From positions 1 through 58,432 of the forward strand of contig NZ_CP006843.1 of NCBI RefSeq assembly GCF_000626675.1: a stretch of DNA of 58,432 nucleotides, in the 5' to 3' direction. The notes under the pieces were generated by a model. That model worked only from the letters and a program-made list of their open reading frames with translations. It made no database searches and was not told the DNA's origin. A program made the position numbers and the translations under genes. The stretch is from Corynebacterium glyciniphilum AJ 3170. Lineage in GTDB: Bacteria; Actinomycetota; Actinomycetes; Mycobacteriales; Mycobacteriaceae. Shown in pieces: positions 10,010 to 31,344 of the stretch. The first letter of the stretch is position 1. Each line of letters begins with the position of its first letter.

Positions 10010-10047
10010 ACTCGCCGTCTCGCCTCGAGGCCTTCTTGAAAGACCAC

Positions 10048-10694: not shown

Positions 10695-10740
10695 ACGACC
10701 CCGCCACATATGACGATACGATAGTCCGGGTGGGGACGTA

Positions 10741-11169
10741 ATGCCTAACGCGTCGGAATTTACTGTCCTTGTCGATCAATGCCAGAGGTTCATCGACAAC
10801 AGGTTTCAGCACGACGATGCTGGTGCCGCAGCAATGATGCTGGGTGACGGAAGTATCGTAATCGGGACGGCTCCTGCTGCGATGAATCCTGCGGTGGAGC
10901 TGTGTCATGAAACCGAGCCATTGTGTGCGGCGTACCGAAGGAACACCATGGTTGTCGCCTCGGTGTGTCTACACAGAGATGCCGTGGGTAGATACTTGGT
11001 TCTTGCACCCTGCGGTGTGTGTCAGGAGCGGCTTGCTCCGCATGGTCCCCAAGTCAAGGTTGCAGTCGCCGGGTCTTCCGCGACGGATGTGCAGTGGCAG
11101 AAGCTGGAAGTGTTGATGCCGTACTACTGGGCACGAGCCTTTCCCGATACTTCCGGGACGTGGGGATAA
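10741..11169 (+). CDS. Cytidine/blasticidin-S-type deaminase
   Basis: A 142-residue zinc-dependent deaminase of the CDA fold. The zinc ligands and catalytic Glu are in CHETEPLCAAYR (where CDA has C/HAE) and APCGVCQERL (PCxxC) near residues 96-105. The length suits the small tetrameric cytidine deaminases and the blasticidin S deaminases. Cytidine salvage is the default role; detoxification of a nucleoside antibiotic is possible. It ends just before a strong hairpin that separates it from the convergent oligopeptide operon. Confidence 0.8.
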   Translation: MPNASEFTVLVDQCQRFIDNRFQHDDAGAAAMMLGDGSIVIGTAPAAMNPAVELCHETEPLCAAYRRNTMVVASVCLHRDAVGRYLVLAPCGVCQERLAPHGPQVKVAVAGSSATDVQWQKLEVLMPYYWARAFPDTSGTWG

Positions 11170-11170
11170 A

Positions 11171-11207
11171 CCAATGAGACGGACCCCCGGGGGGTCCGTC
11201 TCATTGG
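11171..11207. terminator. Bidirectional hairpin terminator
   Basis: A perfect 18-bp inverted repeat, CCAATGAGACGGACCCCC and its complement, with a one-base loop. It sits in the 57-bp gap between the stops of the convergent deaminase and oppA-like genes. There is no T-run, but the stem strength and position fit a shared terminator. Confidence 0.8.
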
Positions 11208-11226
11208 CTACAGTGAACCCTGGTGG

Positions 11227-12957
11227 CTACTTCTGCCAGCCGATGTCCTGCACAGCGACCTGGGAGAAACCAGCGGCACCGAAGTTGGCTAGACCGGGCT
11301 TGACTGCGATGATGCTCGGCCCGTTAAACGTCGGCATGATGCCATAGGTCTTGAAAGCTTCCCGCTCGAGCTCATTGGCCTTGACGATCTGCTCGTCAGG
11401 GTCACCGATCTTCTGCAGCTCCCGGATCTTCTCGTCGAACTGCTCAGAGCCCGTGCCTGACTTGTTGAGTTCCGAGGCCGAGTTGTAGATCTGATCGAAG
11501 TAGGCGACACCGAATGGGTCAGAGGAGCGGAATCCCATCTGGAAGATGTCGAAATCGCGTTCAGTGCTGACCTTTGAGAAGTCCGAGGACGGGCGCTCCT
11601 CGACTTTCATGTTCACCCCGATGTCGGACAGCATCTTCTGCATCGCGCTGGCGCCGGCTTTACCTTGTGGATCGTCTCCCAGCAAGACATAGCGAGGCTC
11701 CAGCTTCGTCCCGTCCTTCTCACGTACGCCGTCGGAGCTTTCAACCCAGCCGGCATCATCGAGCAGTTCCTTGGCCTTGTCCTGATCGAAGCTCACGACC
11801 TCACCGAAGTTGTCCTCGTAACCGTCCTGGGTCTGGAACAGCGTGAACGATCCCGGAAGGTCCTCGGTGTAATTGAGACCGTTGAATCGGATGGTGGCCA
11901 GCTGTGAACGGTCGATACCGGTCATGAGCGCTTCACGAACAGCAACGTCCTCGAGCAGAGGAGCCTCACTGTTGAGCGTGACCAGGTAGTTCGCCGGCAA
12001 CTGTGCGGTGCGGATGTCGGCTTTGTCCTCACCCATGGAACGGGCGGTGGCAAGATTATCCTTGGTCGCCACAGCGGCAGAATCGATCTCCCCGGCCTGG
12101 AACGCGTTGATCGTCGCCTGCGACTCCAGGGCCCGCCAGGTAAAGGTGTCGAGTTTGCCTGGCTCACCCCACCAGTTGTCGTTGCGCTTGAAGCTGACCT
12201 CACCGGTGTTGAAGTCCGCGCGATCAATCGTGTATGGACCAGCACCCCATTCCGGACGGACCTTCTTCAGATAGCCGGTGTTGAACGTCTCAGCGTCATT
12301 GACCTGGGGTGGAACGAAGTAATTGAACAGTCCCTGCCACCACGGGTATTCCTGGCTGAAGGTGACCACGGCCTGCTTGTCGTTGTCACCCCTGCTCACG
12401 GATTCAATGAGGCTGTATCCGTCAGATGACGAGATGTTGTAGCCCTCAGCCTCACCGTTGCTGGACTTCCAGGTGTTCTCGAAGGACGTCCAGTCAATCG
12501 GTGTGCCGTCGTTGTATTCGGCCTGGTCGTTGATGGTGAAACGCAGGACGGTTTTACCGTCCTCAGTGGTTTCGGTGGCCTCGGTGATGTAGTCGGGGTT
12601 GGCCTGGTAGTTTCCGTCACCGTCGAACAGGGCTACCTGCGGGTTGTACCACTTCCATACATCTTTGGTGTACAGGTTCCCGTCGGCGTGGAAGGTGTTC
12701 TGTTGCTCAGCGATTTCGGTGGTGGGCAGGGTGAGTGTGCCGCCATCTTGAATATCGTCACGGGCCTGGATGTTGATGTCCGAGGCAGCTACGGACCCGG
12801 AGTTGCTCGCCGTACCTGCGTTGGAATCTTCGTTGCTGCTGCCACAGGCGGCAAGACCCAGCATGGCCAGGGCGCTCACGGTTGTCGCGGCGATGACTGG
12901 TCGGACACGCCACCGGCGTCTGGCCCCGGGTCGGGGTGCTGTTGTTGGTGTGTTCAT
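11227..12957 (-). CDS. Oligopeptide ABC transporter substrate-binding lipoprotein
   Basis: A 576-residue extracytoplasmic solute-binding protein (SBP family 5). An Arg-rich n-region and a hydrophobic helix end in the lipobox LAAC. The mature protein has family marks such as TNDQAEYNDGTPIDWTSF near residue 140 and REALMTGIDRSQLATI. It is the last gene of an operon: permease, permease, fused double ATPase, then this gene after a 189-bp gap. AAAGGAG sits seven bases before the ATG. It should bind peptides for import. Its length is typical of OppA/DppA-type proteins, and specificity cannot be read. Confidence 0.9.
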   Translation of the reverse strand: MNTPTTAPRPGARRRWRVRPVIAATTVSALAMLGLAACGSSNEDSNAGTASNSGSVAASDINIQARDDIQDGGTLTLPTTEIAEQQNTFHADGNLYTKDVWKWYNPQVALFDGDGNYQANPDYITEATETTEDGKTVLRFTINDQAEYNDGTPIDWTSFENTWKSSNGEAEGYNISSSDGYSLIESVSRGDNDKQAVVTFSQEYPWWQGLFNYFVPPQVNDAETFNTGYLKKVRPEWGAGPYTIDRADFNTGEVSFKRNDNWWGEPGKLDTFTWRALESQATINAFQAGEIDSAAVATKDNLATARSMGEDKADIRTAQLPANYLVTLNSEAPLLEDVAVREALMTGIDRSQLATIRFNGLNYTEDLPGSFTLFQTQDGYEDNFGEVVSFDQDKAKELLDDAGWVESSDGVREKDGTKLEPRYVLLGDDPQGKAGASAMQKMLSDIGVNMKVEERPSSDFSKVSTERDFDIFQMGFRSSDPFGVAYFDQIYNSASELNKSGTGSEQFDEKIRELQKIGDPDEQIVKANELEREAFKTYGIMPTFNGPSIIAVKPGLANFGAAGFSQVAVQDIGWQK

Positions 12958-13146
12958 GGATTCTCCTTTGTGAAAATGCCGGCGGCATGGTTGCACTAGT
13001 CGCCGGGATGCTGGAAGTCGGTGAGTGTGACCTGTCGTTGTGTGTGGGGCGGGGGGGGGAGCGTGTCCTCGGGACGGTCACGCAGGGTGATGTCGGAGTT
13101 GTCGCTATCGCCGCCCGCTGTCTCGCCCGTCTCGTATCTGGCCGTG

Positions 13147-15108
13147 TCATGGCTGAGTCTGCTTTGCAACGGCGCTGGCAGAGCTGCTGCGGTGGCGTTG
13201 AACGTTCGGGTCAGGAATGGGGATGGCTGCCAGGAGTTTCTGGGTGTAAGCGTGCTGGGGGCGGGTGAAGACTTCATCGGTGGGTCCCTGCTCGACGAAT
13301 TGTCCCTGGTACATCACAGCGACTCGGTCGGAGAGATGGCGGATGACGGACAGGTCGTGGGCGATGAACAGTAGCGATAGTCCCAGGCGTCGTTTGAGAT
13401 CGACGAGGAGGTTGATGATTCCTGCTTGGATGGATACATCGAGCGCGGAGACGGGTTCGTCGAGCACGATGATCTTCGGGTTGGTGGCCAGGGCCCGGGC
13501 CAGGCCGATGCGTTGGCGCTGCCCCCCGGAGAACTGGCCGGGGAAGCGTTCAGCGTGGACAGGGTCAAGTCCGACCAGGCCCATGAGTTCGGTGACTCGC
13601 TCGTCGATGTCGCCGGTGTAGCCGAGTGATCGCAGTGGTTCGGTGATGATCTCGTTGACTGTCTGGCGGGGGTCTAGTGAGCTGATCGGGTCCTGGAAGA
13701 CGATCTGAATGTCCGTGCGCGCGGCGCGGCGTTGCCGTGGTGTCAGCTGTTCAACATCCTGGCCACACAGCGTGATGATGGTGTCCTGTGGCGGGTCGAG
13801 GTTCATGATTTCCAGCAGGGTGGTGGTCTTTCCTGACCCGGACTCGCCGACGATCGCGAGGCACTCACCGGCCCGTAGGTCGAAGGAAAGGTCTTTGACG
13901 GCCTGAACGGTGCCCACACGGCGCTTCACCAGCGCCCCTTTGGTCAGTGGGAAGGACTTGTGCAGGTGGTTTACCTCCAGGATGCTGTCACGTTGTTCCC
14001 GTGGCACGGATGCGAGGATGTCTGTGCTTGCTGGAGGCGCGGTGAAGAGTTCGGTCCCGTTGATCGTGAAGTCTGTGATCTCTGCTGAGCGGACACACGA
14101 TGCGCGGTGACCTGGTGTGGACTGCTTAATGTCGAGGAGAGCAGGCTCGTTGTCAAGGCAGGCAGGGATGCTGACCGGGCAGCGCGGCGCAAAAGCACAC
14201 GCGGTGGGCAGATCGATTAACGACGGTGGTGTTCCAACAATCGGGGTGAGGGGCTGTGTTGAGGGGCGGTCCACTCGTGGCGTGCTGCCCAGCAGTCCGA
14301 TGGTGTAGGGCATTTTCGGGTCGGCGAAGAGCTCGTGGACGTCTGCCCGTTCTACGGGTCGTCCGGCGTACATGACCATCACGTCGTCTGCGGTGTCGGC
14401 GACGACGCCCATGTCGTGGGTGATCATGATTGTCGCAGCCCCTGTTTCGCGTTGGGCGATTCGTAGGACGTCGAGGATTTGTGCCTGCACGGTGACGTCC
14501 AGGGCAGTGGTTGGTTCATCGGCGATCAGTACCCGGGGGTTGTTGGCGATGGCAACGGCAATGACCACGCGTTGGCGCATCCCTCCGGAAAACTCGTGGG
14601 GGAAACTGTCGACTCGCTTGGCAGGCTCCGGGATGCCGACGAGGTCCAGGAGTTCAACGGCCTGAGCCCAGGCTGTCTTGTGGGAGACATACTGGTGCTG
14701 GCGGATCGCTTCAATGATCTGGTTACCCACGGTGAACACCGGGGTCAGGGCGATTAGGGGATCCTGGAACACCATGCCGATTTCCGCGCCGCGGATGTCA
14801 CACATGTGTTTGTCGCTCATGCCGATCAGCTCGGTACCGGCGTAGGTGATCGATCCGGTGAGCTTGGCGTAGTCCGGTAGTAGCCCCATGATTGCCAGGG
14901 AGGTGACCGACTTTCCTGATCCAGATTCGCCGACGATGGCGAGGGTGCGTCCGGGGTAGAGGTCGAAGTCGACGCCGCGGACAGCACGGACTATTCCTGC
15001 CTCGGAAGGAAAGGATACGGTCAGATCGCGCACGCTGAGCACAGGCTCGCCACCTGCGCTATCGGTGAGACCATTGTGACCATGAGTGTTGGTGGTGTCG
15101 GTGGTCAT
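13147..15108 (-). CDS. Oligopeptide ABC transporter, fused OppD-OppF ATPase
   Basis: A 653-residue protein with two ABC ATPase domains in tandem. Domain one (about residues 20-330) has Walker A GESGSGKS, signature FSGGMRQR and Walker B VLIADEP, then the oligopeptide/dipeptide C-terminal extension with Cys-rich ACAFAPRCP. Domain two (about 365-640) has GESGSGKTTT, FSGGQRQR and IIVLDEP. Fused OppDF ATPases are common in actinobacteria. It overlaps the upstream permease by four bases and powers peptide uptake with the permeases 15105-17055 and the binding lipoprotein. Confidence 0.92.
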   Translation of the reverse strand: MTTDTTNTHGHNGLTDSAGGEPVLSVRDLTVSFPSEAGIVRAVRGVDFDLYPGRTLAIVGESGSGKSVTSLAIMGLLPDYAKLTGSITYAGTELIGMSDKHMCDIRGAEIGMVFQDPLIALTPVFTVGNQIIEAIRQHQYVSHKTAWAQAVELLDLVGIPEPAKRVDSFPHEFSGGMRQRVVIAVAIANNPRVLIADEPTTALDVTVQAQILDVLRIAQRETGAATIMITHDMGVVADTADDVMVMYAGRPVERADVHELFADPKMPYTIGLLGSTPRVDRPSTQPLTPIVGTPPSLIDLPTACAFAPRCPVSIPACLDNEPALLDIKQSTPGHRASCVRSAEITDFTINGTELFTAPPASTDILASVPREQRDSILEVNHLHKSFPLTKGALVKRRVGTVQAVKDLSFDLRAGECLAIVGESGSGKTTTLLEIMNLDPPQDTIITLCGQDVEQLTPRQRRAARTDIQIVFQDPISSLDPRQTVNEIITEPLRSLGYTGDIDERVTELMGLVGLDPVHAERFPGQFSGGQRQRIGLARALATNPKIIVLDEPVSALDVSIQAGIINLLVDLKRRLGLSLLFIAHDLSVIRHLSDRVAVMYQGQFVEQGPTDEVFTRPQHAYTQKLLAAIPIPDPNVQRHRSSSASAVAKQTQP

Positions 15109-16043
15109 GCGCGTCCTCCTGCGGCGGAGTTGGGGTCCAGGGCGTCACGCAGCCCGTCGGAGATGAAGGCGATGGATACTGTGAGCAGGGTCAGTGTGGC
15201 GGCTGGGAACCAGAACTGCCACGGCGCGGCAGTCAGTGATCCGGCGCCGGTTTGCAGCAGGGTGCCCAGGGAGACGTCGGGGAGTTTCACACCCAGTCCC
15301 AGGAAAGACAGACCGGTTTCGCTGGCGATGGTGGCGACCACGGCAAGGGTGAACTGGATGACCAACAGTGATCCGATGTTGGGGATCATGTGTCGCACGA
15401 TGATGCGGGGTCGGCTGACGCCCATGTAATGCGCGGCGCGGATGTAGTCGTTACTGCGGATGGATAGGGCCATTGACCAGATGACCCGGGCACTCATCAT
15501 CCATCCGAAGGCAATCAGGACCAGGGTGAGGATCTTCCAGTCGCCGCCGGAGTCTCCGACGATCAGTGCGATGAACAAAAAGGTCGGGACGGCCAGAAGC
15601 AGGTGAATGAACTCGATGAGGACTCGTTCGATCCGCCCTCCGTAGAGCGCTGCGGCGGTACCGATGAGCGCGGCGATGATGGTGGTTCCTATGGCTACCA
15701 GTAGCGCGATGGTCAAGGATCGTCCTAGGCCGTGCACGGTTTGGGCGAACAGGTCGTTTCCGGCGTCGGTGGTGCCGAACCAATGTTCGCCGGAGGGGGC
15801 GGTGGACAGATTGAGGAAGTCCGGATCGTCGTAGGACCACGGTGTCACGAGGGGGGCAAGGACGGTGGTCAGGATGAGCAGGGTGAGGATTGCCACCCCC
15901 ACTAGTGCCAGACGGTTGCGGGCGAAGCGGCGCAGGTACAGCCTGGTTTTGCTGGAGCCCCGGGGTGTGGTTTTCACCGTGTTTGCGGTGATCATGGCAG
16001 CTTCTGGTGCGATGGCGGGGGTTGGTTGGGACGTGTTGGTCAT
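15105..16043 (-). CDS. Oligopeptide ABC transporter permease, OppC type
   Basis: A 312-residue permease with about six membrane helices. The N-terminal helix (FARNRLALVGVAILTLLILTT-like, about residues 39-59) precedes a periplasmic loop with GTTDAGNDLFAQTVHG, a typical OppC/DppC signature. The EAA loop motif for ATPase contact is around YIRAAHYMGVSRPRIIVRH. It sits directly after the OppB-like permease, with one base between stop and start, and overlaps the ATPase gene by four bases, so all are co-translated. Confidence 0.9.
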   Translation of the reverse strand: MTNTSQPTPAIAPEAAMITANTVKTTPRGSSKTRLYLRRFARNRLALVGVAILTLLILTTVLAPLVTPWSYDDPDFLNLSTAPSGEHWFGTTDAGNDLFAQTVHGLGRSLTIALLVAIGTTIIAALIGTAAALYGGRIERVLIEFIHLLLAVPTFLFIALIVGDSGGDWKILTLVLIAFGWMMSARVIWSMALSIRSNDYIRAAHYMGVSRPRIIVRHMIPNIGSLLVIQFTLAVVATIASETGLSFLGLGVKLPDVSLGTLLQTGAGSLTAAPWQFWFPAATLTLLTVSIAFISDGLRDALDPNSAAGGRA

Positions 16044-16044
16044 C

Positions 16045-17055
16045 TCAACTCACTCTCACTCTCGGGTCGAGGGCGACGACGAGGGCATCGGAGAGTACCG
16101 CGCCGATGGCGGTGACGACCGCTCCGAAGGCGGCGACGGCGACCGCTCCGTTGACGTCGTTGTTGCTGATGGTGTCCACGGTGTACTGGCCCATGCCGTT
16201 CCAGCCGAAGATTTTCTCGGTCATCACTGCTCCGACGAAGATGCCTGGGATGGAGAAGGCGACGTTGGTCGCCACCGGGATCAGGGAGGTGCGCAGCGCG
16301 TGTTTGCGGATTGCTGTGGTGCGCGGTAGTCCTTTTGCTCGCGCGGTGCGAACGTAGTCAGCGTTGAGGTTGTCTAGCAGCAGGCTGCGCTGGAGCATGT
16401 GGTATCCGGCGTAGCTGATGATCACCAGGGACACCGTGGGTAGCGCGAGGTGTTGGAGGATGTCGACGAGGGTGGGAAAAAAACCTGTGACACCTGAGGA
16501 TTGTGCGCCAGTGACGTAGAAGATTCGTGCACCGGTAGCGTCATTGATGAGCCTGCCGACTGCTACGACCGCGACGGAGACCACGACGATGTGGAGGTTG
16601 ATCGTGACGATGGAGATGGACTGCCAGATCCTGTCGCCGGTCTTGTACTGTCGCGACGCTGTGTATAGACCAATGGCGACACCGATGATCACGGAGAGGA
16701 CGGTCGCTGCGATCATCAGCTGTGCTGAGGTCCACATCCGGTAGCTGACTTGGTCGTTGACGCTGTCACCGATGGGTGAGGTTCCCCAGTCCCAGTGCAA
16801 GACCACTCCGGAGATCCACGCCCACCACCTCTCCAGTAACGGTTGGGTGGGACTGAGGTTCAGCGGGACGAGGATGTTGTCTATCTGTTCGGAACTCAGG
16901 GGTGGTCGACGTCCGGCGAAGTTCGATCGTGGGTCAAGGAAGACGGCGGCGAGGAACCAGGCGAGGTTGGTTGCGATGATGATCACCGCGAGCCATCTGG
17001 CTGCGCTTTTAAGGATGTATCGGGCCATAGTCGCTGGTTGGTGGCTTTCAGTCAT
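16045..17055 (-). CDS. Oligopeptide ABC transporter permease, OppB type
   Basis: A 336-residue first permease of the peptide transporter. The N-terminal signal-anchor helix (about residues 18-38) is followed by a periplasmic region and five further helices. The EAA-like loop reads DYVRTARAKGLPRTTAIRKH, typical of OppB/DppB, and the C-terminus has IFGWNGMGQYTVD. Two in-frame ATGs (17055 and 17028) are plausible; neither has a strong ribosome binding site, so the start is uncertain. It heads the operon that runs to 11227. The upstream flank abuts the second 540-bp repeat. Confidence 0.88.
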   Translation of the reverse strand: MTESHQPATMARYILKSAARWLAVIIIATNLAWFLAAVFLDPRSNFAGRRPPLSSEQIDNILVPLNLSPTQPLLERWWAWISGVVLHWDWGTSPIGDSVNDQVSYRMWTSAQLMIAATVLSVIIGVAIGLYTASRQYKTGDRIWQSISIVTINLHIVVVSVAVVAVGRLINDATGARIFYVTGAQSSGVTGFFPTLVDILQHLALPTVSLVIISYAGYHMLQRSLLLDNLNADYVRTARAKGLPRTTAIRKHALRTSLIPVATNVAFSIPGIFVGAVMTEKIFGWNGMGQYTVDTISNNDVNGAVAVAAFGAVVTAIGAVLSDALVVALDPRVRVS

Positions 17056-17294
17056 GCCGTACCAGAGTGTGGGTGTGCTGGCTGGTGGGCCATGGTGTGC
17101 AGGAGTCACCTGCGTTGCTCTGGACTGGCGGTGGAACACGGGGTTACAGAAAAGATAACAACGATACCGACCGCGACTATGTTCTCCAGGTTAAGTTCAT
17201 GTTTCTCGGTGCTGGTGACGTGCTATTTGTGCTGGTGGAGAGGAATTTCGTTCTGTTCACCTTGGCTAGAATCTAACTCATGCCGGGCTGAGAG

Positions 17295-17825
17295 CTATGG
17301 TGCCTGCCAGATAATCTCACCATCGTCGGTCGTCAAGCCTGATCTGCGCAGCCCCAGCCGGGCTGCGATCGCGGCAGAAGCCGCATGGTCTGGGTGGATC
17401 AAGGCCCTGAAGTGGCTAACCCCATGGTCTCGCAGCCACGTGCACATCAATTGTGCACTGCGTGTGGCCAGGCCCCGACCCTGGAACCGAACCCCGATGA
17501 CCCACGCTAGTTCCGCAACCATCTGGTCGTCCTGGGAAACGACTGTTGCCTGCACGTACCCAGCCGGTTCTCCCGACACGCGAACGATCCAGTTCAACCA
17601 CAGCTGCGCCCCATCAGGCGATACTCCGTCCGCCCGGCGAGCGTATGTGCGGCGTAACTCGTCAATACTCGGTGGCTCACCACCGGTGAAAACATACAGC
17701 TCACGATCCTGCAACACCGTAAGCATCGTGTCAGCATCATCACCGCGCAACGGTGTCAGCAGCACATCGCCCTGCGTAATCGGCGTTGCCTTCAAAGAAC
17801 ATTGTTGGTCCGGATTCTCGCCCAT
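17295..17825 (-). CDS. GNAT-family N-acetyltransferase, copy 2
   Basis: A 176-residue GNAT protein nearly identical to the one at 8410-8941, with the same motif A (GVRFQGRGLATRSAQ) and motif B (IHPDHAASAAIAARLG). It starts 62 bases after the trpS stop on the same strand, so it may be co-transcribed with trpS. Microcin C producers protect themselves in part with a GNAT enzyme (MccE) that acetylates the processed aminoacyl-nucleotide. The neighbourhood of this gene recalls that, but the substrate here is unknown and its presence beside trpS could be an accident of the duplication. Confidence 0.8.
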   Translation of the reverse strand: MGENPDQQCSLKATPITQGDVLLTPLRGDDADTMLTVLQDRELYVFTGGEPPSIDELRRTYARRADGVSPDGAQLWLNWIVRVSGEPAGYVQATVVSQDDQMVAELAWVIGVRFQGRGLATRSAQLMCTWLRDHGVSHFRALIHPDHAASAAIAARLGLRRSGLTTDDGEIIWQAP

Positions 17826-17844
17826 ATCCCCCAGTAAAGCCCCA
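17305..17844 (-). repeat. 540-bp near-identical direct repeat, right copy
   Basis: This pairs with 8421-8960. Recombination between the copies would delete the 8.9-kb segment that carries the metalloprotease, mIHF, deaminase and oligopeptide transporter. Confidence 0.9.
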
Positions 17845-17887
17845 CCATCGGGGATTCACCGCAGCTTGGCTCATACTTGAGGCCCCC

Positions 17888-19025
<1,138 letters not shown>

Positions 19026-19134
19026 ACAATCTGAGACCTCGCGATGCGACAGGGGAACTACAGGTCTACCGTCTCTTTCACCGCGACCACCGCGGCAGCA
19101 GTACACACCACGCTCACTCCGAGAGGAGGACATC

Positions 19135-19206
19135 ATGAAGAAGGCATACCGCAAGCCGGAGGCCACCAAGGCCGAGTTCGGCGCCATCATGGCGTGGCCG
19201 GGCTGA
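19135..19206 (+). CDS. Putative RiPP precursor peptide, 23 residues
   Basis: A 23-codon ORF with an excellent ribosome binding site (GAGAGGAGG, five bases before the ATG), first in a tightly coupled operon. The N-terminal half is basic and has Y5-R-K-P8, resembling the YxxP element through which actinobacterial lasso leader peptides contact the RiPP recognition element; the usual Leu at +2 is Ala and the later Gly is shifted. Thr11 is followed by Lys12, so by the common Thr-minus-2 rule the core would be AEFGAIMAWPG (11 residues). Trp21, Pro22 and the C-terminal Gly stand out. The core has no Cys, Ser or Thr and no Asp/Glu at ring position 7-9, so lanthionine, azole and lasso chemistry are unlikely. 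That it is a precursor is inferred from size and context. Confidence 0.7.
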   Translation: MKKAYRKPEATKAEFGAIMAWPG

Positions 19207-19239
19207 TCGAACCCAACGAAGGTAACTGGAAGGGCGCGG

Positions 19240-19962
19240 ATGTCAACACCGTCAAGCGACATCAAGCGGGGATTGCTCTGCGTCCCCCAGTTACTCTTCG
19301 CGTTGGCTCTTGCGCCATACTCCCCAGTGCTTTCACTGTGTTTTTTCATAGATGCAGTCGTCGTCCTCGCACCTTGGCGCGTGCCCCGATTCTCACGAAG
19401 CGCGGCTAGCTATTGGGCTGAGACGCTACTGACAGTACTTCCCATGGCTCTCGCGATGGCCTACACCATCATCCGCGGTGACGTTCCTTTCACCACTGAC
19501 TACTTGGCAGTACAGATCCTCGCCGGTTTCGCACTCGGTGCAGCGGGACTACACCTGAGCGGGCTTCCCCTAAAAAGTGTCTTCAATGGAGACATTGCTG
19601 AACTAATGGGCCAAGACACCAGATCGCACATAAAGGCTAGGGCGTTTCAGACGTCGGTAGCTCCACTGCTTGAAGAATATACATATCGAGTCGCCCCTTT
19701 TATATACGGCACCATCGCACTATCGGCGGCAGCACAAATAGTCTTTGTACTGCGCCACTATCTACTTCGCGGCGGTAACGAGCTAAAACTGGGCAGGCCT
19801 TTCTATACACGGCTCTCGTTATCGGTCATATACCTACTAAGCTACCTACTGACAGGATCCATCCTAACCGCCGTACTCGCTCACTACATACACAACGCCC
19901 CCACGCTCTATATTGAATATCAGCGATATATTATCAGCGGAGAAAACGATAATGCTAAGTAA
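19240..19962 (+). CDS. CPBP-family intramembrane protease, putative leader peptidase
   Basis: A 240-residue membrane protein with about six hydrophobic segments. It carries the CPBP (Abi/Rce1-like) catalytic pattern: EEYTYR at 145-150 fits EExxxR, and HYIHN at 215-219 fits HxxxN. Such proteases cleave peptides at the membrane and occur in bacteriocin clusters for processing or immunity. GAAGG is six bases before the ATG. It starts 33 bases after the precursor stop. Removal of the precursor leader is the simplest role here; immunity is the alternative. Base composition is clearly lower in GC than the flanking genes. Confidence 0.75.
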   Translation: MSTPSSDIKRGLLCVPQLLFALALAPYSPVLSLCFFIDAVVVLAPWRVPRFSRSAASYWAETLLTVLPMALAMAYTIIRGDVPFTTDYLAVQILAGFALGAAGLHLSGLPLKSVFNGDIAELMGQDTRSHIKARAFQTSVAPLLEEYTYRVAPFIYGTIALSAAAQIVFVLRHYLLRGGNELKLGRPFYTRLSLSVIYLLSYLLTGSILTAVLAHYIHNAPTLYIEYQRYIISGENDNAK

Positions 19963-20734
19963 TCAACTAGTTGCATCGACGGCAGAATGGGTCAAGAGCT
20001 TCTTCCCTGAATCACTCACGCGGAATGTTGTATATAGCGGAAGCATCGTTCAGGGATGGAATCATGCAGAGAGCGACATCGATGTATACGTTATTGCAGA
20101 TCCCTTCACTGTCGGTGCCAACTGGCCTGTTCGTTTCACAGAGTCCTACTTTGAACTCAGTGAGCCCGACGTTCCAGTCGCGGTCAACTGGGTAAACGGA
20201 ACGAAGGTCGATTGTGAATTATGGACTCACGATCAGATCGATGAATTGTCGCGGATACTTCGTCCCAAAGATCCCAAAAACAACTGGGAACTCACGATTG
20301 ACGAGTCATACTTCGATACGTTCTACCGCTTATCCATCGCACGCAGTCTCGAACCTGGTTCACCCTGTGCAAAGATATTCGACGATCAGGCGCAGCAAAC
20401 AGTGGCAAACAATATGGCACGTAGGCGGCTTGATGAAGCCGATGCATACATGGAGGACACTGTAGGGTTGCTGGAGTCAAAGGACTTTCCGCAATCCGCA
20501 TATCTTGCACACATTTCCTACAGAAAGGTCATTGACGCTCTGGTGAGCTCTCGTGGAGAGTATCAGCCAAATGGAAAATGGCGCCCTAGGCGCGTCAAAA
20601 AGGTCGCTCCCGAGCTGTTCAGAGAGTATTGGGAGGTCGAGACGTTCCGAAACATAAATGATAACTACGAGTCCTGGACCACTGACGTACTTCGTAAATC
20701 GAAATCGATCGCATCAAGATTGGAAGTAGCATGA
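19952..20734 (+). CDS. Nucleotidyltransferase-fold protein of the RiPP-like operon
   Basis: A 260-residue protein with a pol-beta-type nucleotidyltransferase motif: GS at 30-31 and DxD at 42-44 within SGSIVQGWNHAESDIDVYV; a third acidic residue is likely in TKVDCELW. The C-terminal half is helical. Its ATG lies inside the last codons of the CPBP gene (11-base overlap) with GGAG upstream; an in-frame ATG at 19913 is less likely. Nucleotidyltransferase-like enzymes decorate some phosphorylated lasso peptides (for example PsmN of pseudomycoidin). Here it may transfer a nucleotide or sugar phosphate to the peptide. A free-standing MNT-type toxin or aminoglycoside-modifying role is possible but fits the operon less well. 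Confidence 0.75.
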   Translation: MLSNQLVASTAEWVKSFFPESLTRNVVYSGSIVQGWNHAESDIDVYVIADPFTVGANWPVRFTESYFELSEPDVPVAVNWVNGTKVDCELWTHDQIDELSRILRPKDPKNNWELTIDESYFDTFYRLSIARSLEPGSPCAKIFDDQAQQTVANNMARRRLDEADAYMEDTVGLLESKDFPQSAYLAHISYRKVIDALVSSRGEYQPNGKWRPRRVKKVAPELFREYWEVETFRNINDNYESWTTDVLRKSKSIASRLEVA

Positions 20735-20997
20735 AGACCTACACGCCGCACATGGGAGCTAACGTACGTAACGTCGGAGGTACTCTATACGTCGCGAAAA
20801 GACAAACCGTGCGCGAGCTCAATGACGTGGCCGTATTAATTTGGCGGACCATTGAGTCTGGTGCCACGGTTTCTGAAATCGTAGATGTAGTTACCTCGGA
20901 GTATTCAGTATCCGAGGAGGAGGCAGAGCGCGATACTATCGACTTCCTCTCTTCTCTTGAGCAAGACGGTCTCGTTGTAGCGAGCGACAATGGGTAG
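20731..20997 (+). CDS. PqqD-like RiPP recognition element
   Basis: An 88-residue PqqD-fold protein. It begins with a three-strand wing (VRNVGGTLYVAKRQTVRELN), and the helix pattern VAVLIWRTIESGATVSEIVDVV with the closing LEQDGLVV is characteristic. Such domains bind leader peptides and deliver the precursor to modifying enzymes. Its ATG overlaps the nucleotidyltransferase stop by four bases, and its stop overlaps the oxygenase start by eight. Its presence as a separate protein next to a YxxP-containing micro-ORF is the main reason for calling this operon a RiPP pathway. Confidence 0.85.
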   Translation: MKTYTPHMGANVRNVGGTLYVAKRQTVRELNDVAVLIWRTIESGATVSEIVDVVTSEYSVSEEEAERDTIDFLSSLEQDGLVVASDNG

Positions 20998-21628
20998 ACG
21001 TTTCAGCGTGCATGACGACCATTTTGAAAAAGAACTGTACGAAAATGTTAAGGAGTGGCACGCACGTCAGCCCTTGCATAATACTATGCTACCTGGTTCT
21101 GGGGTTCGATCACACCACGACGGAAGCGCTATATACGGCGACACGCTCGTTTGGTCAGGAGAGCTTGTCGACGATGACGTACTAGGTCCAGTCACTGTCG
21201 CTATCAAGTCTCTTGCCATGCAGGATACGCGCCTATTCGGAGAATACGAACAGGATTGGGACGCCTTCACGTTGACACCATGGTGCCACCCAGCGGGATC
21301 GCGCTTAGGCTGGCACACGGATCTCCTTGACAGTGGCCCTACAAGGGTGGGCGCGTTCACCTGGTACCTCAACGACGATTGGGACTACGACTGGGGTGGC
21401 CACTTGCAGATCATCGATAGGGATCATTCGGATGTCGAAATGGTAAGTCAAGCAAGCTGGAAAGGAAAAACTCCCTCCGTTTCCTCTTCCATCCCGGATG
21501 TAATACCACCACGGGCCAACCGCTTTGTCGCGTTCAAATCGGGAACCTGGCACTCCGTTTCTCGCGTGGATTTAACAGCGGGAGATCGCATGCGACGCTC
21601 AATAGTCGGTTTCTTTATAAAGACATAA
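20990..21628 (+). CDS. 2-oxoglutarate/Fe(II)-dependent oxygenase
   Basis: A 212-residue dioxygenase of the prolyl-4-hydroxylase-like superfamily. The iron facial triad is visible: H109 and D111 in LGWHTD, and H188 in SGTWHSV. The 2-oxoglutarate Arg is probably R200 or R203 near RMRRSIVGFF. Strand pattern GAFTWYLNDDWDYDWGGHLQII between them is typical of the family (GGxL). It should hydroxylate or otherwise oxidise a peptide residue such as Pro22, Trp21 or another core position. The oxidation could create a hydroxyl for the following kinase or transferase; that order is inference. Confidence 0.85.
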   Translation: MGRRFSVHDDHFEKELYENVKEWHARQPLHNTMLPGSGVRSHHDGSAIYGDTLVWSGELVDDDVLGPVTVAIKSLAMQDTRLFGEYEQDWDAFTLTPWCHPAGSRLGWHTDLLDSGPTRVGAFTWYLNDDWDYDWGGHLQIIDRDHSDVEMVSQASWKGKTPSVSSSIPDVIPPRANRFVAFKSGTWHSVSRVDLTAGDRMRRSIVGFFIKT

Positions 21629-21642
21629 GGGGAGTTTAGATC

Positions 21643-22251
21643 GTGTTTTACGTACTTACCGGTATTGACGGAGCCGGGAAATCAAGTGTCATAGAAGTAC
21701 TGTCCAAACGAGGAATGAAGACGTGTACTGTCACTCCGGAATTCGCGCTATCAAGCGCTGAATATACCAAACCGTTGATTGACATGAAGCCACGTGAGTT
21801 TTTTCAGGATATGCCTCCACTCGAGCGAAGTACATTCTTGTCACTGTTAGTTTCACTGACTTTCGAGCGACACATAAAACCAGCGCTTACAGAAGGTACA
21901 GATATACTCTGCGACTCATACTGGTACAAATATGCTGCTAAAGAGTGTGTCATCAATCCGGGTTCATCGCAATATCTTCTCTCCTTCTTCGAGTCGCTCC
22001 CATCGCCTGATAAAGTCATCGTACTGGAAACCGAACCGGAAGTGGCTTGGGGACGAAAAGGTGGATCCGCAACGCCATTTGAATATGGCGGCGGCGACAA
22101 ATATGACGTACGCGCCGCTTTTATCGACTTCCAAAAGAAAGTCGGAAATAAACTACTGTCTTTTCCGCCTTCCATTGCGACCTCCTCAATAAAGACAGAC
22201 CGAGGTCCGGAGGAATTGGCAGATCACATAGAGAATATGCTGTATGCATAA
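21643..22251 (+). CDS. Thymidylate-kinase-like P-loop kinase
   Basis: A 202-residue P-loop protein with GIDGAGKS at residues 7-14, the thymidylate kinase signature, and a helical lid region with DSYWYKYAAKE where TMK has DRY. It starts at a GTG 14 bases after the oxygenase stop and overlaps the MFS gene by eight bases. A house-keeping dTMP kinase would be unusual inside such an operon. More likely it phosphorylates the peptide, a nucleoside or a nucleotide donor used by the nucleotidyltransferase. Divergent TMK-like kinases are found in several antibiotic pathways. Confidence 0.75.
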   Translation: MFYVLTGIDGAGKSSVIEVLSKRGMKTCTVTPEFALSSAEYTKPLIDMKPREFFQDMPPLERSTFLSLLVSLTFERHIKPALTEGTDILCDSYWYKYAAKECVINPGSSQYLLSFFESLPSPDKVIVLETEPEVAWGRKGGSATPFEYGGGDKYDVRAAFIDFQKKVGNKLLSFPPSIATSSIKTDRGPEELADHIENMLYA

Positions 22252-23446
22252 AGTATCACACCTGCTGCCTGAAGCGTCTTCTGCGATACTCAAGCTTTAC
22301 TCTATATCATTTATTAACTACTTCGCTGCTGGTACCGCAGTGGCCAATGAGGTAGTCTTCGTCGTCAATGAGCTAGGCTCATCGCCGACCTCTGCTGGAC
22401 TTTTTGTTTCCGCAGCTGCCGTGCTCGCGATATTCTCTACATTAGTTTTTGGTAGGATTCTACCTGAAGGAACTAGTTCCCGCGGCTGGTCGTCAATACT
22501 TCTTGTGCAAGGAACATTGGCAGTATCCTTGATATTCATTACAGGAAATGTGCAAGTACTGGTCTGGGTCTCGTTTATGGCTTTGATTCCAGTTTCCCAG
22601 TCGGCAGCTATTTCGGTAGTCAGCGCTATGCAGATTTCTGATATCGTAGTCGTTAGGTCCAGGATTCGGGTCATCATAAACATAGCAATGGCGCTAGGAG
22701 CTTCCTCTTGGTCAGTATTTCGACTGTTCGGAATTAGCCCATCGTGGATCTACTTCATCGTCGGTTGTGCACTAATTGTTGCTGGACTGGCGTGTCTGGC
22801 ACTCCTGAATGTGGTACAGGAGAAGCATCCCTCTGAAGGAAATATCGTAGGTACGTCGAAATCTACCTTATACCATCGTTTAGGACACAGGTTTTGGTTT
22901 TATATATTTTGTTTTTTCCCGTTTTTTCTGGGCAGCGGACTTCTATCTTTCGGCGTCCCTTTTATCATATTACGCAGTTCGTGGATTGATCATCGTAGCA
23001 TAGGTATTTTTTTCGCTATAAATATGGCGCTGGTGGTATTGTTCCAGGTAAAGTTTTCTCATGTCGTTGATAGGTCACGTGCTTTGCCTGTCGTCTCTGT
23101 TTTCTCCGGTATCCTCTTACTTGTCGCATGTCTTATGTTTTCCGCCTTCTCGTTCACTAAGGCTGGACTAGGATTGATTGCCATCATTGTAGTCATTGTT
23201 TCTTTCGTTGAGATCGCTAGTTCAAATATCGACTTTAAGATATTCTATCACCTCACGCCCCGGCACCTGTATGGATCTGCATCCACTGCAAGAACTTCTT
23301 CTGAGTCAGGTGCGCAGGTACTAGCCCCACTGCTTATACCTTCTCTAGTCGTTGTTCATCCTCTATGGTTTGTGTTTTTACTAGTCTGCTTTGGAGCTTT
23401 TTGGTGCTTTTCACTTTGGCGTCTTTCGGCATGCGTTTCCCGTTAG
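22244..23446 (+). CDS. MFS transporter, putative exporter of the peptide
   Basis: A 400-residue major facilitator protein with 11-12 hydrophobic segments, a duplication around a central cytoplasmic loop (about residues 190-215, VQEKHPSEGN) and a short tail. The sequence is AT-rich. It ends the coupled operon of six overlapping or nearly overlapping genes. Export of the finished product, giving self-protection as MccC does for microcin C, is the likely role. The family cannot be told more exactly by eye. Confidence 0.82.
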   Translation: MHKVSHLLPEASSAILKLYSISFINYFAAGTAVANEVVFVVNELGSSPTSAGLFVSAAAVLAIFSTLVFGRILPEGTSSRGWSSILLVQGTLAVSLIFITGNVQVLVWVSFMALIPVSQSAAISVVSAMQISDIVVVRSRIRVIINIAMALGASSWSVFRLFGISPSWIYFIVGCALIVAGLACLALLNVVQEKHPSEGNIVGTSKSTLYHRLGHRFWFYIFCFFPFFLGSGLLSFGVPFIILRSSWIDHRSIGIFFAINMALVVLFQVKFSHVVDRSRALPVVSVFSGILLLVACLMFSAFSFTKAGLGLIAIIVVIVSFVEIASSNIDFKIFYHLTPRHLYGSASTARTSSESGAQVLAPLLIPSLVVVHPLWFVFLLVCFGAFWCFSLWRLSACVSR

Positions 23447-23484
23447 ATTTGCATGCTGTTATTTCCTATTGTTTGGAGCGTTTC

Positions 23485-24570
23485 ATGAGCACCAACCGCA
23501 AGGACGACCACGTCCAGCTGGCCGAAGAACTCACCACCGAGGGGCGCGTACCGTACCCCCCCGGCGGTTTTCACGACCTGCGTTTCATGCACCATTCGTT
23601 CAACGGCCTTGCCCGTGACGCCGTCGACATCTCCACCACCGTGACCGGCGAGCGCTGGGAGGTGCCGTTCTACATCAACGCCATGACCGGCGGCAGCGAG
23701 AAGACCGGACAGATCAACGCCAACCTCGCCCGCGCCGCCGCAGCCACCGGAGTGGCCATGGCAAGTGGTTCCGTCAGTGCTGCCCTACGCGACCTCTCAC
23801 TCGAGCCGACGTTCCGCATTGTGCGCGACAGTGCGCCCGAGGCATTCATTTTCGCCAATGTCAGTCCGGAAGCCTCGGTGGAGCAGGCGCGGCGTGCGGT
23901 GGAGCTGTTGGACGCCAATGCGCTGCAGATCCACGTCAACCCGGCGCAGGAACTGGTGATGCCGGAGGGAGACCGGGACTTCCGTCCCTGGCTCGACCGG
24001 ATCGCCGAGATCGTCTCCGGGGTGGACGTTCCGGTGGTCGTCAAGGAGGTCGGCTTCGGACTCAGCAGCGAGAGCATCGCGGAGCTTGTGGAGCGGGGGG
24101 TGACCACCGTGGACGTCAGCGGGCGCGGCGGCACCAACTTCATCGACATCGAGAACCACCGTCGCTCGCGCCAGGAGTACACCTACCTGTCGGGGTGGGG
24201 TCAGACCACACCCGAGTGCCTGCTGGACACAGTGCATGGTGACGCCGGAGCGCTTGAAGTGGATGTGCTGGCGTCCGGAGGCGTGCGTACCCCGCTCGAT
24301 GTGGTGCGCGCCCTGGCACTCGGTGCCCGCGCCGTGGGCGTCAGCGGGCACTTCCTCCATGTCCTCATGACCGACGGGCCAGAGGCACTGGAGGACGAGC
24401 TGATGGCCTGGACGGTTCAGGTGCGCACCCTGATGACACTGCTCGGGGCGGCGGACGTCGCCTCTCTGTCAGCAACCGACGTGCTGGTCACCGGGGAGAC
24501 CGCGGAGTTCGCCCGGTTGAGGGGTGTGGACCTGCAGGTGCTGGCGCACCGGCGGACCGCAACCGGATAG
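23485..24570 (+). CDS. fni: Isopentenyl-diphosphate delta-isomerase, type 2
   Basis: A 361-residue FMN- and NADPH-dependent isomerase that interconverts IPP and DMAPP. Family marks are YINAMTGGS near residue 65, GVAMASGSVSAAL, ALQIHVNPAQELVMPEGDRDF, VVVKEVGFGLS and SGRGGTNFIDIENHRR, then ASGGVRTPLDVVRALALGA for the FMN phosphate site. ATG at 23485 has GGAG seven bases upstream. It follows the MFS gene by 38 bases but has the high-GC codon use of the plasmid backbone, so I doubt it belongs to the RiPP pathway. It may supply DMAPP; no prenyltransferase is nearby. Confidence 0.93.
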   Translation: MSTNRKDDHVQLAEELTTEGRVPYPPGGFHDLRFMHHSFNGLARDAVDISTTVTGERWEVPFYINAMTGGSEKTGQINANLARAAAATGVAMASGSVSAALRDLSLEPTFRIVRDSAPEAFIFANVSPEASVEQARRAVELLDANALQIHVNPAQELVMPEGDRDFRPWLDRIAEIVSGVDVPVVVKEVGFGLSSESIAELVERGVTTVDVSGRGGTNFIDIENHRRSRQEYTYLSGWGQTTPECLLDTVHGDAGALEVDVLASGGVRTPLDVVRALALGARAVGVSGHFLHVLMTDGPEALEDELMAWTVQVRTLMTLLGAADVASLSATDVLVTGETAEFARLRGVDLQVLAHRRTATG

Positions 24571-29194: not shown

Positions 29195-29494
29195 GATCTC
29201 TCGCCCTTCTTCCCCAAGGGGTTGACAACATGGTTGTGGTTTACTTCTGCCCAGAATAGTGGACCACCCGGCACCAGCGATACCCCAGCAGCGACGGTGA
29301 GCACCTAACGGGACCCGAACCTCGATGTTCTCACCACCATGGTCGTCGGCATCCTGATTGCCGAGCCCCCCGGACGATTCCTGTGCTCCAGAGTCCACCA
29401 CCACACCACTGATGACAGCCAACTAGCACCCCGAAAGATAGCGCATCTCTGCAGCACATGCACCATTTCCATACTTCCTTGTGGCGCAGCAATC

Positions 29495-29503
29495 TGCTAG
29501 AAT
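29495..29503 (+). promoter_or_regulatory. Extended -10 promoter of the AbiE-like pair
   Basis: TGC followed by TAGAAT forms an extended -10 element 50 bases before the GTG start. No good -35 is seen. Confidence 0.4.
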
Positions 29504-29553
29504 CATCGTGTTGGAAGCCTGCTTTTTTAAGACCTCGCGAAAGGAGCAACCCC

Positions 29554-30192
29554 GTGGCTCTCGCTGAACTACTCGACCGCTCCCGCGGTTTCGTCCTCGA
29601 CAGTCAGCTCGGCGAGGATGAATGCCGGGCTGCGGTCTGCGCCGGCGATCTGCAGGTCCACGATGTTCTCGGTGATGTCACGGTGTACCGGGCGGTGAAC
29701 GTCGATGCCGAGCTCCAGGTCGAGGACTACTGGCCTACGGTCATGGCGTTGAGCCCTACCGCGTTTCCTGAGCCCGGCACCTCGCCGGGGTTCATTCTCG
29801 CCGACGCGACCGCACTGAGCATCCGCGACTGCGGTGTGCTGCTTCCCGAGAACATTCAGGTACTGGTTGACCCTGATCACCTCGCCTCTGTGTCGACGGT
29901 GCCTGGCACGTCAGTGACCACGGGACTCTTCGTCGATACCGACTGGTCATGGGAGTACGGGATTCCGGTGATGACGGCGCTGTGTGCGATCCGCCGACTG
30001 GCGGACAATCCCGGCGTTGAGCCGGCCTGGCTGGCCGAAGCGATCGGTGATGCCTACGACAACAGGCTGGCAAGTGCGGACGCGCTGGCCGCCGCGGTGT
30101 ATCAGCGGGCACTGTCGTGGGGCTACCGCGATGGATACACACTGATCGACAGTCTGGCCCCCGGGATCGTTGCAACGACCACAGCCGTGTAG
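29554..30192 (+). CDS. Putative partner (antitoxin position) of the AbiEii-like protein
   Basis: A 212-residue acidic protein with a GTG start and AAAGGAG seven bases upstream. I do not recognise a domain; the N-terminal winged helix of AbiEi antitoxins is not obvious. It ends in a stop directly abutting the ATG of the AbiEii-like toxin gene, the arrangement of type IV abortive-infection toxin-antitoxin operons. Its role as antitoxin is inferred from that position only. Confidence 0.6.
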   Translation: MALAELLDRSRGFVLDSQLGEDECRAAVCAGDLQVHDVLGDVTVYRAVNVDAELQVEDYWPTVMALSPTAFPEPGTSPGFILADATALSIRDCGVLLPENIQVLVDPDHLASVSTVPGTSVTTGLFVDTDWSWEYGIPVMTALCAIRRLADNPGVEPAWLAEAIGDAYDNRLASADALAAAVYQRALSWGYRDGYTLIDSLAPGIVATTTAV

Positions 30193-31344
30193 ATGGCTGA
30201 CGGCCACGACAACTTCGTTCCTCGGCTCACCGACCTGCTGCGCAATGCTGCACGGCAGGCAGATGAGCCCCCGCAGACCACCCGGAACCGGTACTTCCGA
30301 CATCGGCTGTTCGCGCGGCTGTCCGAGGAGTACCCGGACAAATGGGTGCTCGCCGGGGCCACAGCCCTGGAGGTGCGGATCGATTCTCCCCGCAGCACCA
30401 GTGATCTGGACACGATCACCTCCATAGCCATCGACGAGGTGGCTGAAGCGATTGAGACGCTGGGTGAGTCACCACAGGACCCCTTCGACTACTCGGTGAA
30501 GGTCCCCCGCAACATCCGTGCCACAGAGGGACTGAAGGCGAAGATCACGGTGAGCTATGACGGCAAACCCGTGGAACGGTTCTCGGTGGACATCGAGCAC
30601 TCCGTCGACAACGGCACCCCGCCAGAGCGCATGGCGATCTCTCCGACGGTGGCGACCGGGACCATCGCCGATACCGATACCAATGGCCTCGTGCAATCCA
30701 GTGCTGATCACATCGCGGCGAAGGTCGCCGGGGTGAGCAAGATGACCACCAGGACGAATGCCGAAGGTGTGACCGAGCAGGTCAACACGCACCGCTATCA
30801 CGATCTGGCGGATCTGGCGATGCTCAGTGACACCCAGTCGGTGAGCATGGCTGATCTGGTGCGATCCCTGGACTTCCAGGCGAACAAGCACGGTTCCGAA
30901 GCGATCCCCCGCCAGCTCGACCTTCCCGGTGATGACTGGAACCCAGACAAATGGGAACAGGCTCGTGCACTGCGACCGTGGCCTGCCGACCTCACCATCG
31001 ACCGAGCGCTAGAGAAAGCCAAGGTGCTGGTCAACCCAGCCCTGGAGCACTACCACGCCGACGTCGAGCACCCGACGGGACGGTGGTCGCCAGACGATCA
31101 CCAGTGGACGGCGGACATCGCATCCGAGAGGGACGTCGCTCAGGATTCCACTTTGCCGGGGACTTCGGGGCTGGCTGCGGTACGTGATCCGTTCGCCGCC
31201 ACCAACCCGTTCGAGGCCCGCGACCCCTACGACGTGAACCCGTTCGACTCCGGGCGTACCCAGTCACCCCCGCAGGCCCCTGACGGACCCCTGCCTCCCC
31301 CGAGCGATCCCGACCCTGGCACACCGCGCGGCCCCGAGATCTGA
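30193..31344 (+). CDS. AbiEii/AbiGii-type nucleotidyltransferase toxin
   Basis: A 383-residue protein with an AbiEii nucleotidyltransferase core. LAGATALEVRIDSPRSTSDLD near residues 53-73 contains the G(A)TAL...R..SxDLD active-site motif. ERFSVDIEHS likely holds the third acidic residue, and SADHIAAKVAG plus HRYHDLADL are the typical downstream helices. AbiEii toxins of this superfamily modify tRNA or GTP and cause bacteriostasis during phage infection. The C-terminal 90 residues are Pro/Asp-rich and look disordered, an addition to the usual fold. Confidence 0.78.
   Translation: MADGHDNFVPRLTDLLRNAARQADEPPQTTRNRYFRHRLFARLSEEYPDKWVLAGATALEVRIDSPRSTSDLDTITSIAIDEVAEAIETLGESPQDPFDYSVKVPRNIRATEGLKAKITVSYDGKPVERFSVDIEHSVDNGTPPERMAISPTVATGTIADTDTNGLVQSSADHIAAKVAGVSKMTTRTNAEGVTEQVNTHRYHDLADLAMLSDTQSVSMADLVRSLDFQANKHGSEAIPRQLDLPGDDWNPDKWEQARALRPWPADLTIDRALEKAKVLVNPALEHYHADVEHPTGRWSPDDHQWTADIASERDVAQDSTLPGTSGLAAVRDPFAATNPFEARDPYDVNPFDSGRTQSPPQAPDGPLPPPSDPDPGTPRGPEI

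Follow-up and report, generated by a model that had tools for sequence, protein, structure and literature searches.

The window analysed here is the entire 58,432-base contig NZ_CP006843.1 of Corynebacterium glyciniphilum AJ 3170, whose genome also has a contig of 3.51 Mb. Genes for the ctRNA_pGA1 antisense RNA, a TrwC relaxase, and ParA are present in the window, which is therefore a plasmid; pGA1 is a corynebacterial plasmid. The plasmid contains an operon resembling a cluster for a ribosomally synthesized and post-translationally modified peptide (RiPP), in which a micro-open reading frame (micro-ORF) for a putative precursor is followed by genes for a CPBP-type membrane protease, a nucleotidyltransferase (NT), a PqqD-family RiPP recognition element (RRE), a 2-oxoglutarate/Fe(II) oxygenase (2OG), a thymidylate-kinase-like (TMK-like) kinase, and an MFS transporter (Table 1). 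The first-pass annotation had described a 23-residue ORF with a strong ribosome binding site and six tightly packed genes, and this arrangement was confirmed at the same coordinates. The micro-ORF, whose product is MKKAYRKPEATKAEFGAIMAWPG, has the Shine-Dalgarno (SD) region GAGAGGAGGACATC directly before its ATG and ends 33 bases upstream of the CPBP gene. The NT gene (start taken from sequence reading) overlaps the CPBP gene by 11 bases, the PqqD gene overlaps the NT gene by 4 bases, and the 2OG gene overlaps the PqqD gene by 8 bases; the 2OG and TMK-like genes are separated by 14 bases, and the TMK-like and MFS genes overlap by 8 bases. Automatic ORF calling absorbs the micro-ORF in a 64-aa frame that begins at 19012, but its start was set at 19135 because of the SD site and the homologues described below.

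Table 1. Features of the operon and of the divergent gene pair beside it, in window coordinates
Feature	Position	Strand	Basis
SD region of the micro-precursor, GAGAGGAGGACATC	19121-19134	+	Direct sequence; micro-ORFs of relatives are also SD-preceded
Micro-precursor, 23 aa; YxKP leader; probable core about AWPG	19135-19206	+	Homologues in 14 other loci
CPBP/Rce1-like membrane protease	19240-19962	+	Pfam Rce1-like, E 4e-4 (below cut-off); motifs EEYTYR, FVLRH, AHYIHN
Pol-beta-type NT; signature GS...G...SDxD	19952-20734	+	NTP_transf_2, E 0.008 (below cut-off); motifs; profile
Discrete PqqD-family RRE	20731-20997	+	Pfam PF05402, E 5e-15
2OG; H109-x-D111, H188	20990-21628	+	Pfam PF13640, 1e-14, and PF13661; 49% identical relative P0002
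TMK-like P-loop kinase	21643-22251	+	PF02223, E 9e-8
MFS transporter, candidate exporter	22244-23446	+	PF07690, E 5e-12
Extra tryptophanyl-tRNA synthetase (TrpRS), divergent from the operon; class-I HIGH-type motif with Gln in place of His (residue 22)	17888-18904	-	Sequence comparison
GNAT acetyltransferase, partner of the variant TrpRS	17295-17825	-	Sequence comparison

Four of the six proteins following the micro-ORF (PqqD, 2OG, TMK-like, and MFS) have Pfam matches above cut-off, and the CPBP and NT assignments rest on weaker matches together with motifs; catalytic signatures are intact in the NT, 2OG, and CPBP proteins. No radical SAM, YcaO, LanB/LanM, AsnB, ATP-grasp, or lasso B2 family was reported by Pfam for the operon proteins, nor was a ThiF domain, the NT being of the Pol-beta type. 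The earlier observation of a discrete PqqD gene with no cyclase of a known class thus stands. The CPBP protein is a candidate leader peptidase or immunity protein.

Searches for single proteins returned few relatives. In a collection of 5.8 billion proteins, the 2OG and the NT each had one relative beyond self (P0002, 49% identity, and P0004, 54%, respectively), and since 19,269 bases is given as the longest contig for both, these two are probably neighbours. Scans of genome contigs and viral contigs with the 2OG, and of viral contigs with the NT, gave no relatives, and a 2OG locus in another genome (G138) was rejected as a relative because its neighbouring genes differ. A profile built from the two NT sequences, searched against 397 genomes of the order, matched six genomes besides our own. 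In all six, the distance between the NT gene and a PqqD gene is at most 1.4 kb, and an SD-led micro-ORF is present, which was found by a scan that used no motif; the encoded peptides are MKKYAKPAAAKVSQSTVLKAHT, MKKYAKPAVSKVSQATVLKDNT, MKKYVKPVAKKVTFAVILGVTP, MKKYVKPTAKKVDFGTILDVTP, MKEYKKPTVRKVSIGKAMNVA, and MRKYRKPVLRRIDVVKAPISPTI.

The search was extended to the class with an eight-row NT profile, which matched 28 of 394 genomes. Among the 27 matches outside our genome, the 11 stronger ones were read with their flanks. One further strong locus (L101, 262 bits) was obtained, with a PqqD gene and a micro-ORF encoding MKKYTKPEATKVSFGAVLGLKV; the remaining 10 loci (L102-L111, 127 bits or less) contain neither a PqqD gene nor an SD-led micro-ORF. 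In the phylum, 69 of 396 genomes were matched, and the new matches scored 28 bits or less. Two plasmid searches added four records, from Streptomyces scopuliridis NBC 01786, Streptomyces sp. NBC_00853, Streptomyces europaeiscabiei NBC_00497, and Nonomuraea gerenzanensis. All four carry a PqqD gene, up to 5.2 kb from the NT gene, and an SD-led micro-ORF, for which in Nonomuraea a GTG at 2257 was taken as the start because it is the sole start codon with a properly spaced SD site. The gene tables of PLSDB, which are incomplete, have no gene entered at the micro-ORF of the three annotated Streptomyces plasmids, and phage records yielded no match to the one family NT used as a query, that of L114.

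A control pattern (M followed by 1-5 residues and YxKP, total length 18-30 aa) was fixed once the first loci had been found. It was present in all of the first 12 cluster loci and SD-led in each, with an ATG start in 11 and a GTG start in L117; L043 and L117 each hold an extra match elsewhere without an SD site. When these loci were resampled with an order-1 Markov model (15 replicates), the match rate was 0.47 per 12 loci, and no match had both an SD site and ATG. No SD-led match occurred in 17 control loci, which contained a single match without an SD site (L109). The pattern was then applied to a sample of 151 genomes of one genus, for which the prediction had been recorded beforehand; 15 genomes were matched at 1e-20, two of them already known. 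Five strong loci were new, with 7 NT genes scoring at least 260 bits, and the micro-ORF was found in 3 of them, in one case (L145) without an SD site by the pattern used; it was found in none of the 9 weak loci, which scored no more than 100 bits. A PqqD gene adjoins an NT gene in all five strong loci, and a PqqD-like match lies about 2 kb away in one of the weak loci.

Altogether, 15 of the 17 delimited loci, including the window operon, have a micro-ORF of 21-23 residues with the pattern M(1-5)YxKP...(V/I)(L/M)xxxx, and a PqqD gene is located within 5.3 kb of the NT gene in all 17 (within 30 bases in 12). Among the 19 loci of remoter NT relatives, an SD-led micro-ORF was found in none, and PqqD is absent from 18. 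In three pairs of related loci, the micro-ORF DNA is 78-88% identical versus 30-48% for the 60-base flanks (ungapped comparison). Homologous clusters with a conserved small ORF at the corresponding place, which the first-pass annotation had named as its own test, are therefore present, and its view of the locus as an operon of RiPP type, comprising a micro-precursor and a stand-alone RRE, is supported by the recurrence of the micro-ORF beside PqqD and NT genes.

At the protein level, the GS, G, and SDxD elements and a C-terminal KWR are kept across all 13 aligned NT family members, and equivalents of the CPBP motifs (with E or Q as first residue) occur in 6 of 6 family members. The family profile of PqqD has its nearest matches in the PqqD structure 3g2b (1e-13) and the lasso B1 proteins TbiB1 and TfuB1, and that of the TMK-like kinase matches a thymidylate kinase of solved structure (1e-13). 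The nearest matches of the NT profile in the Protein Data Bank are weak, i.e. GLD-2 poly(A) polymerase (3e-4), MntA (0.004), and aminoglycoside adenylyltransferases (0.06).

The alignment of the 15 precursors contains Y, K two residues on, and P in every sequence. Y..P could have differed in 7 of the 15 precursors and K in 12; the other sequences were found using the motif, so that the invariance of Y..P in 8 precursors and of K in 3 is by construction. The leader block up to (V/I)(L/M/V) is mostly conserved, and the last four residues vary. The core had earlier been placed at AEFGAIMAWPG, with a Thr two residues before it, but AEFGAIM aligns with the leader block of the other precursors (approximately K-V-x-F/Q-G-x-V/I-L) and the proposal was abandoned; because the conserved block extends through AEFGAIM, the core of the window precursor is probably only about AWPG.

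The variable tails show a compositional pattern. Twelve of the 15 precursors carry N, T, S, H, or K at the penultimate position, compared with 3 of 15 at the last position and 2 of 15 at the third-last. The three exceptions are Pro in the window, where the 2OG is encoded, Ile in L117, where the protein directly downstream is, judging by its sequence, a 2OG-like enzyme, and Val in L047, where FAD-binding and acyl-CoA-dehydrogenase-like proteins are encoded; all three thus sit in clusters with a different oxidizing enzyme. In L048 the penultimate residue is Thr, and AsnB and the diiron oxygenase are both absent. This distribution suggests that the penultimate residue is the carrier of the modified group and that, in the window precursor, the penultimate Pro would be hydroxylated first. 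PF13640, the family matched by the 2OG, includes prolyl hydroxylases.

In the first 12 loci, partner genes were detected as follows: NT and PqqD in 12 each, AsnB, TMK-like, and MFS in 9 each, diiron oxygenase in 8, and CPBP in 6, using family profiles built partly from the loci scored; the TMK-like match in L116 lies inside a protein annotated as an aminotransferase. Where many relatives encode AsnB together with a diiron oxygenase, the window operon has its 2OG instead. The AsnB proteins of the relatives retain an N-terminal Cys and NGE(V/I)YN in 9 of 9 cases and SGG(I/L)DS in 8 of 9, with intact glutamine amidotransferase (GATase) motifs, and therefore look like true glutamine-dependent amide formers. 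The gene following the micro-ORF encodes AsnB in L043-L046 and L114-L116, PqqD in L047 and L048, an aminotransferase in L101, and the 2OG-like protein in L117.

This variety of following genes bears on the possibility that the micro-ORF is a regulatory leader (attenuator) peptide instead of a substrate. Its extreme shortness and its position at the head of the operon, just ahead of the CPBP gene, would fit such a role. However, YxKP recurs as an amino-acid sequence together with a PqqD-type protein, and different genes follow the micro-ORF in different loci, so that attenuation is a very improbable explanation. PqqD-type proteins bind leader peptides, lasso B1 being an example (PMC5067487).

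A second alternative is that the micro-peptide serves as a carrier scaffold, to the C-terminus of which a small molecule (an amino sugar, cyclitol, deazapurine, or amino acid) would be attached, finished, and cut off, the final product then being something other than the peptide. The neighbouring pathways indeed differ widely among the loci: streptomycin-like cyclitol genes adjoin the micro-precursor cluster on a Streptomyces plasmid (L115, 798-5844); the TMK-like gene of L048 has PTPS/QueD-type, small radical SAM (below cut-off), QueC with GATase, guanylate-kinase-like, and HIT genes as neighbours (9274-16587); aminotransferase, B12/radical SAM, and aldo/keto reductase genes are found in L045; and class III aminotransferase and PfkB genes are found in L101. 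Nine of the first 12 loci encode an AsnB whose GATase motifs are intact, and the variable tail comprises only about four residues, both of which would also suit a scaffold. In contrast, the window operon has neither AsnB nor an ATP-grasp ligase, no small-molecule pathway was recognized among the window neighbours at 15105-24570, and the patterned composition of the tail fits modification of the tail's own residues. We consider a scaffold role unlikely.

Lasso peptides are among the known systems closest to the operon. The YxxP leader is lasso-like, the best NCBIfam models for the PqqD protein are those of lasso B1 (below cut-offs), and AsnB-like enzymes, as noted above, occur in most of the first 12 loci, all of which might indicate a degenerate or variant lasso cluster. 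Against this, PF13471 (B2) is unmatched in our own genome and no C protein is encoded in the operon. Among 11 genomes or records searched (the set excluding L117 and L141-L145), PF13471 was matched in four, none of the matches being linked to a cluster; the nearest on the same contig is about 143 kb away, and two are on other draft contigs. In addition, the variable stretch is much too short to form a lasso ring, and when the 11 C-terminal residues are treated as the core, only 5 of the 15 precursors, that of the window not among them, have Asp or Glu at position 7-9. Lasso membership of the window operon was thus rejected on the basis of B2, C, and core length, unless a different kind of B2/C pair acts in trans, and the lasso explanation is extremely improbable.

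The lasso peptides paeninodin, pseudomycoidin, and canucin (CanE) resemble the operon in combining a PqqD/B1-type RRE with a kinase, an NT, or a 2OG acting at the C-terminal residue (PMC8498205): the kinase of pseudomycoidin phosphorylates the C-terminal Ser, to which its NT gene product adds hexose, and CanE hydroxylates the C-terminal Asp. The operon differs from these systems in lacking the B2 and C cyclase proteins, in its TMK-like rather than HprK-like kinase, and in the 21-23-residue precursors, with a variable end of about four residues, of its family. Microcin C resembles it in the gene-encoded mini-peptide, NT, and MFS exporter described in PMC9239234, which also reports a 21-aa putative MccA in Nocardia vaccinii; however, the microcin C NT is the ThiF-like MccB, unlike the Pol-beta-type enzyme of the operon, which adds PqqD and an oxygenase. 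Further systems share single traits only with the operon. The pathways for PQQ and mycofactocin use a very short precursor and a PqqD-type RRE, but no radical SAM maturase was found among the operon proteins; pantocin A derives roughly three of its short precursor's residues by means of the ThiF-like PaaA into a product, but the operon encodes no PaaA-like protein. No description of this gene set was found in the literature searched, outside the scope of which lay most subscription papers and preprints; within that scope, the remark in the first-pass annotation that it knew of no described RiPP class with this combination is supported, and the operon apparently represents an undescribed kind of modified mini-peptide cluster.

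Taken together, it is fairly probable that the operon is a member of a family of actinobacterial RRE-dependent RiPP clusters with 21-23-residue precursors and a C-terminus modified by an oxygenase and an NT; the RiPP reading as such appears well supported by comparative genomics. In the proposed pathway, PqqD would bind the leader M-K-K-(A)-Y-x-K-P and present the C-terminus, and the 2OG would hydroxylate AWPG as the core, the simplest site being the penultimate Pro. The NT would put a nucleotide on the functional group at this residue, although the group moved by an NT cannot be read from its name, as the hexose-adding NT gene product of pseudomycoidin illustrates. The TMK-like kinase, which may act on nucleotides, would either prepare the nucleotide donor or phosphorylate the product. 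With its QueC, PTPS, guanylate-kinase-like, and HIT genes, L048 is in keeping with a nucleotide donor and speaks for a nucleotide as the group transferred. The leader would be cut off at the membrane by the CPBP protein, and the very short modified peptide would be exported by the MFS protein.

Several findings weigh against this proposal. The window's type of 2OG was found in 0 of the 16 other loci, CPBP is present in only 6 of the first 12, and no TMK-like counterpart was detected in the stretches read of L046, L114, L115, L141, L142, and L143. The PqqD protein matched nothing but itself in the protein database search. Two of the five strong loci in the genus sample are without a micro-ORF, namely L141, which has fragmentary neighbours and looks decayed, and L142, a bare NT and PqqD pair; a second bare pair is carried by L143. 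The family limits were set differently among the searches, with all matches accepted in the order and plasmid searches and a score gap applied in the class and genus searches, and the pattern at the penultimate residue was spotted post hoc. Finally, the micro-ORF codons of the three related pairs contain 9 synonymous versus 15 amino-acid-changing substitutions, and purifying selection is therefore not demonstrated. The two bare pairs (8961-10033 in L142 and 12729-13798 in L143) have no recognizable precursor or AsnB of their own.

If the proposal is correct, the operon belongs to a RiPP family that gene callers easily miss, with precursors of about 22 residues of which apparently only the last few are converted. 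The enzyme set would predict nucleotidylated, oxidized mini-peptides, which are rare among RiPPs, and the combination of NT, PqqD, and YxKP would provide a direct route to mining further clusters, making a chemically unexplored natural-product family searchable in actinobacteria.

Divergent from the operon, the variant TrpRS and the GNAT gene form a cassette that is present at three sites: in the window (17288-18930, minus strand), in the chromosome of the same genome (8138-9777 of L009), and in a contig of another species (9709-11352 of L023, in which an adjoining 177-aa ORF at 8937-9470 has a signal-peptide-like start). A second GNAT copy, 97% identical and without a TrpRS, is encoded at 8410-9060 of the window (minus strand). 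The genome has three TrpRS genes, i.e. the plasmid copy, the L009 copy, which lies in a stretch with ArdA and an integrase-core transposase gene (presumably of the IS3 type), and the L010 copy, which was taken as ancestral and has a LysR/BrkB context. The cassette TrpRS proteins of this genome differ from the ancestral copy only within residues 4-67. Residue 22 is Gln in all three cassette copies, including the one in the other species (G521), and His in all seven other TrpRS genes compared, one of which is split. As judged from these comparisons, the variant TrpRS looks like a target-resistance gene and the cassette like a mobile cassette for resistance to a TrpRS inhibitor.

Together with the Trp-containing precursor and an Opp-type transporter, the cassette is reminiscent of microcin C, where producer immunity is provided by MccE2, a GNAT, and the drug enters through an oligopeptide transporter (PMC9239234). 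Both have possible counterparts on the plasmid: just downstream of the GNAT gene, on the same strand, an Opp-type oligopeptide transporter (substrate-binding protein, fused ATPase, and two permeases) is encoded at 11227-17139 (minus strand), and its ATPase is 45-48% identical, over less than half its length, to the best-scoring chromosomal matches. The mini-peptide might accordingly be a microcin-C-like Trojan horse that delivers a Trp-nucleotide mimicking Trp-AMP and blocks TrpRS; the variant TrpRS would be the resistant spare, a candidate self-resistance target, and the GNAT, a candidate MccE-like immunity protein, would acetylate the payload as MccE2 does. Trp is found in none of the other 14 precursors, and the other 16 loci have no TrpRS gene in the stretches read. 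On the other hand, in the stretches read of the chromosome and of the other species' contig, the TrpRS-GNAT pair stands without an accompanying RiPP operon, and the GNAT is only weakly similar to MccE, no closer than to other GNATs. Because the cassette also occurs without the operon, we regard the Trojan-horse reading as doubtful and rather improbable; if true, it would imply a new kind of tRNA-synthetase antibiotic carrying its own resistance gene. The cassette was rejected as a fixed part of the class, since tblastn found neither gene in the 16 other loci (17-29 kb each) and the cassette exists without the operon.

The GC content per kb is 47-54% in the operon compared with approximately 59-65% on both sides, which suggests that the operon was acquired recently. 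A scan for promoters and terminators gave a site count not above that of shuffled sequences. The isopentenyl-diphosphate isomerase gene that follows the operon (23485-24570) was excluded as a member, as it has a 93% identical chromosomal paralogue and a much higher GC content. Elsewhere on the plasmid, genes for PgsB-like and PgsC-like proteins and a gamma-glutamyltranspeptidase (619-4441, minus strand) probably direct poly-gamma-glutamate synthesis, and an AbiEii-type nucleotidyltransferase gene with an upstream partner gene (29458-31344, plus strand) possibly constitutes a type IV toxin-antitoxin pair.

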